Positions 44,168 to 63,682 of a DNA stretch of 64,000 nucleotides are shown piece after piece; positions within the stretch are counted from its first letter, which is position 1; each line of letters starts with the position of its first letter. Both the position numbers and the translations under genes were made by a program. The notes under the pieces are model-generated. The model was not told where the DNA came from. It saw nothing but the letters and a program-made list of their open reading frames with translations, and did no database searches. The stretch is from Pseudophaeobacter sp. EL27 (GTDB lineage: Bacteria; Pseudomonadota; Alphaproteobacteria; Rhodobacterales; Rhodobacteraceae): assembly GCF_900313025.1 (NCBI RefSeq), contig NZ_OMPQ01000011.1, positions 372,001 to 436,000 of the forward strand, given 5' to 3'.

Positions 44168-44272
44168 GGTGTTTTTATTGACATAGGTCAAAGACACATT
44201 CTTAGCGCATCTTTAACCATGTTCGTATCCCGCGCATGTCCGGGTCATGACATGCACCTCCCTGTTGGACTA

Positions 44273-44300
44273 GGCCGGGCATCGCGCCCGGCCCTTTTTT
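44273..44300 (+). terminator. Intrinsic terminator of the response-regulator gene
   Basis: GGCCGGGC (44273-44280) pairs with GCCCGGCC (44286-44293) over ATCGC, followed by CTTTTTT. Confidence 0.92.
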
Positions 44301-45767: not shown

Positions 45768-46556
45768 ATGGCCTTTACCCTTGCCACTTGGAACATCAAC
45801 TCTGTCCGCCTGCGCGAAGGGCTGGTGCAGAAACTCATGCGCGAGGAAGGCCCGGATGTGCTGTGCCTGCAGGAGTGCAAAAGCCCGGTGGATCTGATCC
45901 CGACCGAGGGTTTTGCCGAGTTGGGCTATCCCCACATGGTGGCACGCGGCCAGAAGGGCTATAACGGCGTCGCCATTCTGTCGCGCCTGCCCATCGAGGA
46001 GGCCGGGGCTGAGGATTTTGCCAATCTTGGTCACGCCCGTCATATCGCTGGGCGCTTGGAGAACGGTGTAACCGTGCATAATTTCTATGTGCCTGCAGGC
46101 GGGGATAAGCCCGACCGCGCGGTGAATGAGAAATTTGGTCAGAAGCTGGATTACCTCAGTGAGATGCGGGATTGGTTCAAGGCTGAGCGGCCCGAGAAGT
46201 CCATTCTGGTAGGGGATCTGAATATCGCGCCCCGCGAGGATGATGTCTGGGATCACAAGAAGATGCTGAAAATTGTCAGCCACACGCCAGTGGAGGTGGA
46301 TCTGTTGGCAGAGGTGCAGGAGGCTGGCAGTTGGGCGGATGTAACCCGGGCGGATATCCCCGAAGGGTTGCTGTATAGCTGGTGGAGCTATCGCGCCAAA
46401 GATTGGGATGCAGCGGACAAGGGGCGACGGTTAGACCATGTCTGGGCCACCGAAGACATCAAGCAGGCGGCGCATTCCAGCCGGGTTCTGCGCGCCGCGC
46501 GTGGTTGGGAAAAGCCCAGCGACCATGCGCCAGTCTTTGCGACTTTTGATCTGTAA
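45768..46556 (+). CDS. xthA: Exodeoxyribonuclease III
   Basis: Exonuclease III is the main AP endonuclease and 3'-repair exonuclease. The 262 residues carry the motifs of the family: WNINSVRLR, the metal glutamate in LCLQECK, the active-site GYNGVAILSR and VGDLNIAP, and the terminal SDHAPVFATFD histidine. The length is normal. The ATG is preceded by AGGAAGAGA. A family A repeat begins 13 bp after its stop, in the same orientation, and takes the place of an ordinary terminator. Confidence 0.96.
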   Translation: MAFTLATWNINSVRLREGLVQKLMREEGPDVLCLQECKSPVDLIPTEGFAELGYPHMVARGQKGYNGVAILSRLPIEEAGAEDFANLGHARHIAGRLENGVTVHNFYVPAGGDKPDRAVNEKFGQKLDYLSEMRDWFKAERPEKSILVGDLNIAPREDDVWDHKKMLKIVSHTPVEVDLLAEVQEAGSWADVTRADIPEGLLYSWWSYRAKDWDAADKGRRLDHVWATEDIKQAAHSSRVLRAARGWEKPSDHAPVFATFDL

Positions 46557-46569
46557 GCGTTAAAGGGCA

Positions 46570-46657
46570 GGGGCGGCTCCCGCCCGTCGTTTGGGCATCA
46601 CAGATGCCCGCCTCCCGTTGGGCCGAGCGCCGCGCTGACGCGCGGCGCGGTTGCGCC
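46570..46657 (+). repeat. Family A structured 3'-end repeat, copy 1 (after xthA)
   Basis: The element runs: GGGGCGGCTCCCGCCC, hairpin GGGCATC/GATGCCC (46593-46609), linker GTTGGGCCGA, hairpin GCGCCGCGC/GCGCGGCGC (46627-46648), then GGTTGCGCC. Other copies are at 48656, 48842 (minus) and 63591; they share linkers but have different, still-pairing stems. Confidence 0.8.
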
Positions 46658-47753: not shown

Positions 47754-48398
47754 ATGATGCATATCGCGGATCTGCCGGACACTATTGCTGTCTTCCCATT
47801 GCCTCGGGCGATTTTATTGCCCCGGGCGCGCCTGCCGCTGCATATTTTTGAACCCCGCTACCTGCAGATGTTTGAGGATGCGCTGAAAACTCCGGAACGT
47901 CTGATTGGCATGATCCAACCCTGTGCTCGACCAGGGGATGCCGAGGCGCTGCACGCCATAGGCTGCGCCGGCCGGGTGACACAGTTTTCCGAGACTGAGG
48001 ACGGTCGCTATATGGTCACCCTGTCCGGCCTGTCCCGGTTTCGCGTTCTGGGAGAGGTCACCGGCTTTAGCCCCTATCGCCGCTGTGACGTGAGCTGGAG
48101 CGGTTTTGATCGTGATCTTGGCAGTTCTGGTGAGCTGGACCCGGAGTTTGATCGCACTGGTTTCCTGTCCCTGTTGGAGCGGTTCTTTGTGGCGCAGGGC
48201 CTGTCTACGGATTGGGGCTCGTTGAGCGAGGCTGAAGATGAGCTGCTTATCAACTCTCTGTCGATGTTGTTGGAGTTTGAGCCCGAGGACAAACAGGCCT
48301 TGCTAGAGTCGCCCTGTCTTGCCACAAGGCGGAAAACGCTGGTGACATTGATCGAGTTTGCCCTTCGGGGCGGCGCACATGAGGATATCTTGCAATGA
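47754..48398 (+). CDS. Lon substrate-binding (LAN) domain protein
   Basis: The 214-residue protein consists of a Lon N-terminal-like domain without the ATPase or protease. The N-terminal [26 protein letters not shown] stretch is the hallmark, followed by LIGMIQP, the GCAGRVTQF strand and a helical end with KQALLESP. Stand-alone LAN proteins are common in alphaproteobacteria and their role is unclear. Two adjacent ATG codons are possible starts. The gene lies 27 bp after the thioredoxin-TPR gene and overlaps the Trm112-like gene by 4 bp, suggesting one transcript. Confidence 0.88.
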
Positions 48399-48583
48399 GT
48401 GATACAAAACCGGTGACCTTTGATCGCCGCATGCTGGAGGCCCTGGTCTGTCCAAAAACCCAAGGCACGCTTGAGTATGACGCCGAGGCACAGGAGCTGC
48501 GGTCCAAGGCCGCAAACCTGGCCTTTCCTATCCGTAACGGTATTCCGGTCATGTTGGTGGATGAAGCCCGCGTAATTGACTAG
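48395..48583 (+). CDS. Trm112 family protein
   Basis: The 62-residue protein is a single Trm112-like domain. The core is [19 protein letters not shown] followed by [16 protein letters not shown], the usual C-terminal signature. In other organisms Trm112 activates methyltransferases; bacterial homologues are small, often with one or no paired cysteine, as here (only CPKT). It overlaps the Lon-domain gene (ATGA) and is the last gene of that run. A family A repeat lies 72 bp downstream. Confidence 0.9.
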
Positions 48584-48655
48584 GCCGATGGGGTAAGGCG
48601 GACATCTAGGCTTTGGATTGTGGCCAAAACTCCTGATAGTTTGACTTGACAAGGG

Positions 48656-48740
48656 AGGGGCTCCCGCCCCCGCAGCTGCCCCGTTGGGGCAACTTGGCGG
48701 CGTTGGGCCCGGCGCTGAGCTGACGCACAGCGGGCGCGCT
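48656..48740 (+). repeat. Family A structured 3'-end repeat, copy 2 (after trm112-like gene)
   Basis: GGGGCTCCCGCCC, hairpin GCCCC/GGGGC (48678-48690), linker GTTGGGCCC, and a weaker second hairpin around GCGCTG and CAGCGGGCGC. It is the least complete copy at its 3' end. Confidence 0.7.
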
Positions 48741-48841
48741 ATTTGATATGTGGTGGATTTGGCAGTGCCTGGAAAATGGCGCTATGTGGCAAGAGGGCTG
48801 GCCGCGTGGGTCGGTATTCGCGACAGCTGCGAAACCAGCGG

Positions 48842-48926
48842 TGCCGCGCCTTGCCGGTGGGCAAGGCGCTTGGCCCAACTGGATCGCAACACCAGAGGTG
48901 TTGACGGAATGGGCGGGAGCGCCCCC
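48842..48926 (-). repeat. Family A structured 3'-end repeat, copy 3 (after ubi hydroxylase gene)
   Basis: On the minus strand: GGGGGCGCTCCCGCCC, hairpin CAACACC/GGTGTTG (48887-48903), linker GTTGGGCCAA, hairpin GCGCCTTGCC/GGCAAGGCGC (48846-48869), then GG. It starts 17 bp after the hydroxylase stop, in the sense of that gene. Confidence 0.8.
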
Positions 48927-48943
48927 TTGCGGATGGCGAGAGG

Positions 48944-50170
48944 TCAAATGGCTTCGCCTTTGAGCAGACGCGGCAAATCGCCGGTCAGCCCGGCGGCCTC
49001 GCGCATGAAACCACGCCTGAGGCCCGGCAGGCTGTTCACCAGTCCCATCCCTAGATCACGGCCAAACCGCAGCAGCGGGTTGTCGTTGGAAAACAATTTG
49101 TTGACCATGTCTGTGCTGGCCACAAGCGTGGCCGTATCAAAGCGGCGCCACTGTTGATAACGCTCCAGAACCAGCGAAGAACCTGCGTCTTCACCGCGGC
49201 GTTTGGCCTCGGTCAGCACCTCAGCCAGGGCGCCAACATCGCGCAACCCGGCGTTCAGCCCCTGTCCGGCGATGGGGTGCATGCCATGGGCCGCATCCCC
49301 AATCAGCGCCATCCGGGTACCAATGAAACTATTGGCGATGGTCAGGTTCAGCGGATAGGTAAAGCGCTTGCCTGCCAGAGAGATCTCACCAAGAAAGTCA
49401 CCAAAGCGCGGTTTCAGGGCAGTGATGTAATCGGCATCCTCCAGACCGTGGATTGCCTGAGCCATCTCGGTCTTTTCGCTCCAGACAATCGAGGAACGAT
49501 TGCCGGGCAGCGGCAGGATCGCCAGCGGGCCGGGCTCCATGAAGAACTGGTGGGCAATGCCGTGGTGTGGTTTTTCGTGATCAATGGCGCAGACCAGCGC
49601 GGTCTGGCCATAGTCCCAGCCGCTGCGCGTGATCCCGGCGCGGGCTGCGGTGCCGCTCTTGCGCCCGTCTGCGCCGACCAGAATACCGCCCCGCAGAGTC
49701 TCGCCACTCTCTAGCGTCAGAGTGACGCCGGTCTGATCCGCCTCCTGGGCGACAACGCGGGCCTCATTGATCTGGGTGATGCTTGGTTCATCTTCCATCG
49801 CCTGCAGCAAGGCGCGACGCAGATAGCGATCCTCCAGCATATAGCCCATCGGGCCTTCTTCGATTTCGCGGTGGTCAAAATGCAGGAAAAACGGCGATGC
49901 CCCTTCCCCGGCATGACCATCGCTGGCCTTGATTTCCAGCATGGGCTGCGCCTGCTCTGCCACCAAGGGCCAGATGCCGATCTGATGCAGCAACCGCTGC
50001 GAGGCCAAGGCCAAGGCATAGCCGCGCCCATCAAAATCCTCTTCCTTAAATCCGCCCCTTGGCAGGGCGTCGATCACAGTGACGCTATGACCCGTCTGAG
50101 CCAGTGCCAAAGCCAGAGCAGGGCCATTCAGACCACCACCTACGATCAGAATATCGGATGTGTTTTTCAT
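48944..50170 (-). CDS. UbiH/COQ6 family FAD monooxygenase (ubiquinone hydroxylase)
   Basis: The 408-residue protein hydroxylates the ubiquinone ring during biosynthesis. It has the FAD-binding Rossmann start LIVGGGLNGPALALALA, the GADGRKS segment and the second FAD motif IGDAAHGMHPIAGQGLNAGLRD, all typical of UbiH/UbiF/UbiL enzymes. Which ring position it modifies cannot be told. ATG 50170 begins at the Rossmann fold with GAGGT close upstream. It diverges from the amidase gene and converges on the trm112-like gene, with a family A repeat at each 3' end. Confidence 0.9.
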   Translation of the reverse strand: MKNTSDILIVGGGLNGPALALALAQTGHSVTVIDALPRGGFKEEDFDGRGYALALASQRLLHQIGIWPLVAEQAQPMLEIKASDGHAGEGASPFFLHFDHREIEEGPMGYMLEDRYLRRALLQAMEDEPSITQINEARVVAQEADQTGVTLTLESGETLRGGILVGADGRKSGTAARAGITRSGWDYGQTALVCAIDHEKPHHGIAHQFFMEPGPLAILPLPGNRSSIVWSEKTEMAQAIHGLEDADYITALKPRFGDFLGEISLAGKRFTYPLNLTIANSFIGTRMALIGDAAHGMHPIAGQGLNAGLRDVGALAEVLTEAKRRGEDAGSSLVLERYQQWRRFDTATLVASTDMVNKLFSNDNPLLRFGRDLGMGLVNSLPGLRRGFMREAAGLTGDLPRLLKGEAI

Positions 50171-50324
50171 ACCTCGCAATATGCGCTGATTGGTGGAATT
50201 GTCCATGCCACCGGAGGGCAATTCGGCAGATCTAAGCCGCTGGCCCGCGCTGACTTTGGTCTTCGGGATTGTACGAGGTTCAGCAGGAGGCTACCGTCCT
50301 GGAAAATCCATGGGAGAGATGGCA

Positions 50325-63105: not shown

Positions 63106-63190
63106 AGACTGTTTCCTCTAAATTTTGCTTCAAGAGTTGGACATCTGCCAGCGTTTTGCGCTAGTAACAAGTCACGGAGACAGTCTGCCA

Positions 63191-63517
63191 ATGCTAAGAA
63201 CACGCGCCAAATATAATCTGGGACAGGTTGTCCGGCACCGGAAACACCCGTTTCGCGGCGTGGTTTTTGATGTGGATCCAGAGTTCGAGAACACGGAAGA
63301 GTGGTATGAATCCATTCCCGAGGACAGTCGCCCGGTGAAAGATCAGCCGTTCTATCACCTGCTGGCAGAGAATGATCAGACCTACTATGTGGCCTATGTC
63401 TCGGAACAGAATCTGGTTGCGGATTATTCCGGTGAACCGATCAGCCACCCGGACCTGCCGGAGATGTTTGATCAGTTTGATGGCGCCGCCTATGCGCTGC
63501 AGTATCAGCTCAACTGA
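63191..63517 (+). CDS. hspQ: Heat shock protein HspQ
   Basis: HspQ is a small protein that in E. coli binds hemimethylated DNA and modulates Lon. The 108 residues match the family from KYNLGQVVRHRKHPFRGVVF to the DQTYYVAYVSEQNLV and SGEPISHPDL segments. ATG 63191 was chosen because the domain begins there; an upstream in-frame start would add residues in the promoter region. It is divergent from the AEC transporter. A family A repeat follows about 74 bp downstream. Confidence 0.93.
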   Translation: MLRTRAKYNLGQVVRHRKHPFRGVVFDVDPEFENTEEWYESIPEDSRPVKDQPFYHLLAENDQTYYVAYVSEQNLVADYSGEPISHPDLPEMFDQFDGAAYALQYQLN

Positions 63518-63590
63518 GCCGCAGCACCGCTTTATCACCCCTTTTTGAAATCACCTGAAATTGCTGCTCCCTTGGCAGATCTTGCCAGGG

Positions 63591-63682
63591 TGGGGCTCCC
63601 GCCCCCTGTTTCAGAACTGGCTGCGCCAGCCTGACAGGCGTTGGGCCGGGCGCCGTTCCTTCGGCCCGGCGCGGTTGTGCCC
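63591..63682 (+). repeat. Family A structured 3'-end repeat, copy 4 (after hspQ)
   Basis: GGGGCTCCCGCCCC, hairpin CTGGC/GCCAG (63617-63629), linker GTTGGGCCGG, hairpin of GCGCCG-type stem with bulges, then GCGCGGTTGTGCCC. A further short hairpin (TTGGCA/TGCCAA-like) lies just upstream at 63571-63590. Confidence 0.8.

Follow-up and report, generated by a model that had tools for sequence, protein, structure and literature searches.

Two-hairpin repeats at gene ends of Pseudophaeobacter and related roseobacters: a REP-like family whose strand follows replication

REPs and REPINs are dispersed, extragenic, palindromic repeats of 20–40 bp that form inverted doublets, carry a GTAG tag and are associated with RAYT transposases (excerpts of PMC3116915 and PMC6006769). 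Arrival as single-stranded DNA at the replication fork has been suggested for REPINs (excerpts of PMC3116915), and the related IS608 and ISDra2 are documented to transpose from and into the lagging-strand template (excerpts of PMC6006769). REPs lie mostly in convergent and unidirectional ORF gaps, and CGTC-tagged REPs, which predominate in alphaproteobacteria, occur in such gaps as inverted dimers and have no known dedicated transposase (excerpts of PMC3733652). BIMEs are mosaics of modules (excerpts of PMC6006769), and ncS54 (RF02871) has two successive hairpins (excerpts of PMC5688073).

The repeat described here, designated family A, shares dispersal, extragenic location, palindromic structure and inverted doublets with REPs and REPINs, and the gap preference, inverted pairing, alphaproteobacterial hosts and want of a known dedicated transposase with CGTC-tagged REPs. 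Unlike REPs and REPINs, as portrayed in those excerpts, it measures about 85–90 nt with two hairpins, has no GTAG foot, is unaccompanied by a Y1 transposase in 11 of the 12 genomes of the genus and has mostly copy-specific stems. GT[AG]G stands near the foot of the second hairpin in 18 of 150 copies, so that this hairpin does not bear the REP/REPIN tag. Family A is also larger than the CGTC-tagged REPs of PMC3733652 (in part) and has the second hairpin; CGTC follows the linker in 42 of 150 copies, where it does not directly foot an 8–9 bp stem, the stem not being adjacent in aligned copies. Family A is filed as a REP-like element and not as a REP, because its location and doublets are REP-like but its tag, size, transposase and stem variability differ.

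The window is a stretch of 64,000 nt (C4:372001–436000) from a genome of 4.55 Mb, and gene calls throughout are codon-usage ORFs made in this analysis. Four copies of family A had been located in it by a sequence-only reading, and all four are found there. Copy 1 (46568..46657, + strand, 72.7 bits) is single and lies in a gap of tandem + strand genes, 11 nt (model bounds) beyond the end of a 262-aa ORF (45768..46556, +); its parts on the + strand are the 5' linker GGCTCCCGCCC (46575–46585), the first hairpin, HP1 (46593–46599/46603–46609), GTTGGGCC (46617–46624) and the second hairpin, HP2 (46627–46635/46640–46648). Copies 2 and 3, both model matches, form a tail-to-tail pair in a convergent gap. 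The left member, copy 2 (48652..48742, +), starts 68 nt beyond a 62-aa ORF (48395..48583, +) and comprises on the + strand HP1 (48677–48682/48686–48691), GTTGGGCC (48702–48709) and an imperfect HP2 at about 48711–48733. A spacer (48743..48836) separates it from the right member, copy 3 (48837..48928, −), which has, in + strand positions, HP1 at 48887–48893/48897–48903, GGCCCAAC at 48872–48879, HP2 at 48846–48855/48860–48869 and the linker at 48911–48920, and which lies 15 nt from the end of a 425-aa ORF (48944..50221, −) convergent with the 62-aa ORF. Copy 4 (63587..63681, +, model match) is single, lies 69 nt beyond a 130-aa ORF (63125..63517, +) and has convergent ORFs on either side, the downstream one truncated by the window end; its + strand parts are HP1 (63617–63621/63625–63629), GTTGGGCC (63640–63647) and an imperfect HP2 at about 63650–63671.

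The first hairpins of the four copies pair as had been claimed (GGGCATC/GATGCCC, GCCCC/GGGGC, CAACACC/GGTGTTG, CTGGC/GCCAG), and the two copies with a perfect second hairpin are copies 1 and 3. The linkers said to be common are near-fixed, but the 13-base 5' linker is exact only in copies 2 and 4, with one mismatch each in copies 1 and 3. The placement 13–74 bp past a stop codon, with copy and gene on one strand, holds for 4/4 copies by the ORF calls made here; it is uninformative for 3/4, because in a convergent gap either strand is the sense of one neighbour. Elsewhere in the window a SorX sRNA match (95 bits, 44227–44299, +) and an FMN riboswitch match (108 bits, 1487–1693, −) were noted.

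Family A consists of a near-fixed linker CTCCCGC, a variable HP1, a linker TTGGG and a GC-rich HP2. Of 152 model hits in the own genome (G000) and the same-genus G008, 151 carry CTCCCG and were chosen by it, so that the motif itself is the selection criterion; in these, information climbs from about 12 nt before the motif, first with A-rich sequence and then with a G run. The C that follows is fixed in 150/151 and a second C is present in 117/151. With a Watson-Crick pair scored as 1 and G.T as 0.5, the best contiguous HP1 stem scores 6.4 on average in 150 of the 152 copies (two dropped, orthologues included), whereas chimeras joining two copies average 4.2 and shuffles 4.0; scores of at least 6 are reached by 58% of the real hairpins, 11% of the chimeras and 6% of the shuffles. 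HP2 scores 9.0 vs 6.3 in chimeras; its commonest arm is GCGCCGCGC (30/135) and its commonest loop TGAC (21). Among 128 HP1 stems, orthologues included, 97 have distinct arms. These values, together with compensation seen between orthologues, bear out the view that near-fixed linkers flank stems with compensating changes. RNAalifold on the raw alignment predicts 11 pairs, 5 of them with a double change, and it understates HP1 covariation because the position of HP1 shifts between copies.

Sites of the attC type have an R box GTTRRRY and a partner box RYYYAAC. That family A represents attC-like sites of a tyrosine recombinase would fit a repeat in which the fold outweighs stem sequence and stems are free to vary, and GTTGGGC does fit the R box, GTTRRRY being present in 88/150 copies. 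This reading is very improbable and largely refuted: RYYYAAC stands at the expected end in 0/150 copies, and the search of the own genome for integron integrase gave 8 matches with none over cut-off, on which grounds attC membership was rejected.

In Rfam, no curated family reaches its threshold over family A. The best sub-threshold match over the element is ncS54 (29.6 bits, E 0.004, gathering 43), obtained at one of 13 loci scanned permissively; membership was rejected at 29.6 vs 43 bits. SorY touches one element with 19.4 bits vs a threshold of 111. No description of family A or of a replication strand bias in REP-like repeats was recognised among the open-access papers listed, and PMC12306157 holds no mention of Rhodobacter, Ruegeria, leading strand, lagging, convergent or tail-to-tail.

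The exact pattern GCTCCCGCCC-N(10–40)-GTTGGGCC has 21 matches in the genome vs 0 for a reversed control pattern. A covariance model built on 36 copies of G000, which therefore match by construction, finds at least 74 copies there (E < 0.03); copies recur genome-wide far above chance. Since the own-genome and same-genus model searches went no further than 150 or 107 candidates per genome, all copy numbers are lower bounds. Family A is present in 15 of 40 genomes, namely the own genome, 11/11 other members of the genus and 3 of 28 others, and 25 are without it. The same-genus relatives have from at least 37 to at least 89 copies per genome, and the three other genera, with one genome each, have 4, 42 and 33. 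Nine plasmid records match copy 1 in blastn (Leisingera 3, Tritonibacter 2, Parasedimentitalea 2, Ruegeria 1, Paracoccus 1); only about one third of the query is covered in Paracoccus and in one of the Leisingera records.

A resident RAYT was rejected as mobiliser: of the 12 genomes of the genus, 11 lack PF01797 (Y1, RAYT-type transposase), namely G000 and 10 of its 11 relatives, and the remaining relative, G005, has one short match over cut-off (profile 84–121, open frame 76 aa). No autonomous parent copy was found in five widely spaced stretches between copies, of which one contains an IS3-like fragment (by eye), three contain apparent host genes and one contains nothing. At L073 (G000 C8:84.6–85.1 kb) a fragment resembling an IS3-type transposase, so named by eye, lies in the 1 kb that separates a copy of A from an inverted one.

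In G000, 54 copies lie in convergent gaps, 10 in tandem gaps in sense, 8 in tandem gaps in antisense and 2 in divergent gaps (n=74), the gaps of at least 60 nt in the window being 8 convergent, 19 tandem and 6 divergent; divergent gaps hold 3/78 copies in G008. Family A is thus extragenic, with 72/74 G000 copies non-divergent and 2/74 inside an ORF called here. A sense gene lies upstream of 64/74 G000 copies, at a median distance of 37 nt from the stop codon, and the location at gene 3' ends that had been read from the window holds across the genome.

This location, the strong hairpins with compensating changes, and, at one locus, a conservation greater than that of synonymous sites all favour the sequence-only reading of a 3' UTR RNA element transcribed with the upstream gene and serving termination, stability or sRNA release. 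The orientation of copies can be judged in tandem gaps only, because convergent genes provide a sense neighbour for a copy on either strand. Single copies in tandem gaps are sense:antisense 7:5 in G000 (49 singles, one copy at a locus edge excluded), 7:8 in G008 (46 singles) and 2:2 in G003 (20 of 37 singles examined), which gives 16 sense vs 15 antisense. When orthologous sites are merged, 58 clusters result: 41 in convergent gaps, 4 in sense and 6 in antisense at tandem sites, 1 in a divergent gap and 6 mixed; five of the mixed clusters join a tandem sense or antisense call with convergent, and one has sense 3 and antisense 2. Calls at one locus (L059) rest on a weak ORF, and a Pfam check of six antisense sites found a family match for 10/10 neighbouring ORFs. 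No sense bias is to be seen at tandem sites, with power limited by the few independent sites, so that a modest sense bias would still be compatible with the merged counts (4 sense-only vs 6 antisense-only). A tie to the reading direction of the upstream gene, on which the RNA argument had leaned, is not supported.

Nor is ordinary intrinsic termination indicated: a T tract (at least 5 T in the next 8 nt) follows HP2 in only 8/132 copies, and by a simple rule intrinsic terminators occur equally often whether a convergent gap contains the element (19/82) or not (3/13). HP1 shows no G.U preference, with G.T 12 vs A.C 44 in 150 copies, and HP2 has 14 vs 8; shuffled HP1 (256 vs 365) leans as real HP1 does and HP2 the opposite way, so wobbles decide nothing on the acting strand. 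The 44 A.C/C.A oppositions in HP1 often occur once per stem, in either order, and separate its upper and lower part. With strand tracking replication as described below, the RNA reading is unlikely as a whole; covarying hairpins and gene-end location are supported, sense coupling is not, ordinary termination is not indicated, and an RNA role after insertion would be possible.

The strand of family A follows replication, without visible tie to transcription. In alphaproteobacteria rsmG is usually close to the origin, and it was used as origin proxy in G008 (C6:3.738 Mb), G003 (C1:2.291 Mb) and G006 (C1:0.174 Mb), where 36/46, 30/37 and 37/45 singles, respectively, are co-oriented with replication. 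An origin scan by element strand alone gives a peak interval that contains rsmG on 3/3 chromosomes, within about 100 kb; with randomised strands in G008, 5/2000 sets reach the observed maximum (coarser origin set). The two arms of G008 are unequal in this bias, with 18/19 singles running with replication in one arm and 18/27 in the other. GC skew matches the mapped direction at 56/59 G008 loci and in 61/66 element-oriented flanks. Because G000 is fragmented, its replication direction was judged by GC skew, with which 38/49 singles agree when the element is excluded and 37/49 when it is included.

Merged site clusters (G000, G008 and the G003 sample) run 47 with replication and 11 against (n=58; p = 2e-6), and those with a mapped member 40 with and 9 against. 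By context, with:against replication is 32:9 in convergent-only, 4:0 in tandem sense and 4:2 in tandem antisense clusters; before merging, 25/31 tandem singles run with replication (sense 13/16, antisense 12/15). Gene orientation does not explain the bias, because genes at the same loci have none (100:105 for neighbours of G008 loci and 32:41 for the G003 sample). On the template of the lagging strand, 5' to 3' is the direction of fork movement. Family A thus has, in 47/58 clusters, the orientation bias of IS200/IS605-type elements towards this template, and lacks their Y1 transposase. Copies 1 and 4 of the window are on the + strand, at least 177 kb downstream of rsmG, with which they share a contig, and by the arrangement of G008 they would run with replication.

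An origin-to-terminus polarity on three chromosomes, together with the uneven chromosomal distribution and conservation at one locus, is also what a host-encoded polar DNA signal would show, one read by a replication, segregation or nucleoid protein during passage of the fork or of a translocase and placed at gene ends for lack of space elsewhere. Density, however, drops toward the terminus: the terminus-nearest fifth holds 2/49 copies in G003, 6/71 in G006 and 0/78 in G008 (8/198 overall). In G008, the 1 Mb opposite rsmG (C6:1.08–2.06 Mb) has 0/78 copies. About one fifth of single sites are on the opposite strand, similar sequence occurs on plasmids, and at least 37 to at least 89 copies per same-genus genome are few for guidance. 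Pairs, moreover, point both ways. Inverted pairs closer than 400 nt, to which the pair counts apply (head-to-tail pairs left out), are all tail to tail and involve 24/74 copies in G000, 32/78 in G008, 12/49 in G003 and 26/71 in G006; the reverse arrangement was found in none of the four genomes. A polar DNA signal is unlikely on this evidence. Under the preferred reading, that of a REPIN-like element deposited on the template of the lagging strand, terminus depletion needs an extra reason.

Most examined sites are shared within the genus, with 40/58 site clusters (G000, G008, G003 sample) spanning more than one genome. At the site of copy 1, the element is present in the same gap in 9/11 same-genus relatives; G001 is without it, and G005 has one about 600 nt further upstream. 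Six relatives have a GGGCATC-type HP1 at this site, degenerate in the case of G007; G002 and G010 have an altered HP1, and that of G009 is unrelated. Copies 2 and 3 are missing as a pair in G003, G009 and G010, where the gaps are short (109, 37 and 71 nt); G005 is not alignable there, though it has an overlapping pair in the stretch examined. Eight genomes have the pair; across them, with a gap opposite a base scored as a mismatch, column identity averaged over genome pairs reaches 0.80 and 0.75 in the elements vs 0.38 in the spacer, and fourfold sites of the adjacent thioredoxin-like gene give 0.60 (2641/4387 comparisons). At this one locus, where it was measured, the elements are conserved above fourfold sites and spacer. 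In G001 the copy 2 HP1 has a compensatory change from GTGCCCC/GGGGCGC to ATGTCCC/GGGACAC. No clean empty site or target duplication was found, element-less sites being also without much of the spacer, and recent transposition does not explain the HP1 differences among some orthologues.

Some copies of family A are followed on the same strand by module B, which consists of GCTGAGA, a hairpin and a stem TCAAGG...CCTTGA around two hairpins, all within a freely varying outer stem. The predicted fold is multibranched over 128 positions, with a double change in at least 1 of 18 sequences at 20/37 predicted pairs; breaks or gaps affect the outer pairs in as many as 6/18 sequences. G000 has 17 copies (E < 1e-7), including C8:80030, C10:47579 and C7:274410, of which 11 have family A just upstream on the same strand, and some units are ordered A-B-inverted A. 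In three of the other six, A is replaced by a related GCTTCCGCGC or GCTACCGCGC module (by eye); at L227, L230 and L231 this variant 5' module, following an A/G-rich run, lies upstream of B (by eye). At L228 a hairpin and T tract stand immediately 5' of an A-less B copy (by eye). Sequence resembling B is found in 8 plasmid records (7 of Leisingera, 1 of Phaeobacter), one A-plus-B stretch had no match in phage records, and an Rfam scan of four B-bearing loci (L003, L008, L026, L030) gave no match to module B. BOX repeats are modular mosaics; their likeness to the units described here, and that of BIMEs, is in module composition, and B differs in being a multibranched fold.

Mosaic structure, inverted doublets, rare divergent placement and predominantly genus-shared sites thus characterise family A. 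The best explanation, to which a probability of about 0.47 is given, is a REPIN-like non-autonomous element laid down on the lagging-strand template and later retained at gene ends of roseobacters. The active form would be a folded single strand of linker, variable HP1, second linker and GC-rich HP2, often doubled tail to tail and sometimes carrying module B. Copies may have inserted into the lagging-strand template while it was single-stranded, by means of a still missing enzyme, and such entry would have set their strand relative to the fork. They would then have been retained because they were put to use, as the conservation of orthologous copies above synonymous sites suggests at the one locus measured and as may be the case elsewhere; the use may lie in hairpins that work on either strand and, at the 3' ends of genes, delimit or protect transcripts. 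A possible, though doubtful, further reading is that family A represents an undescribed class of single-stranded DNA elements defined by structure, which would do without a Y1 transposase in targeting the lagging-strand template and then be selected as strand-indifferent boundaries of chromosome or transcript, with stems turning over freely and linkers fixed.

REP-like gene-end repeats are often read as RNA signals from their downstream location, and family A shows this location without visible sense bias. Arrival, which would be as single-stranded DNA, is separated in it from retention, which would be by selection at gene ends. Comparing strand at tandem sites with the replichore is a simple test for any such repeat family, and the missing mobilising enzyme in a copy-rich genus is a concrete target.
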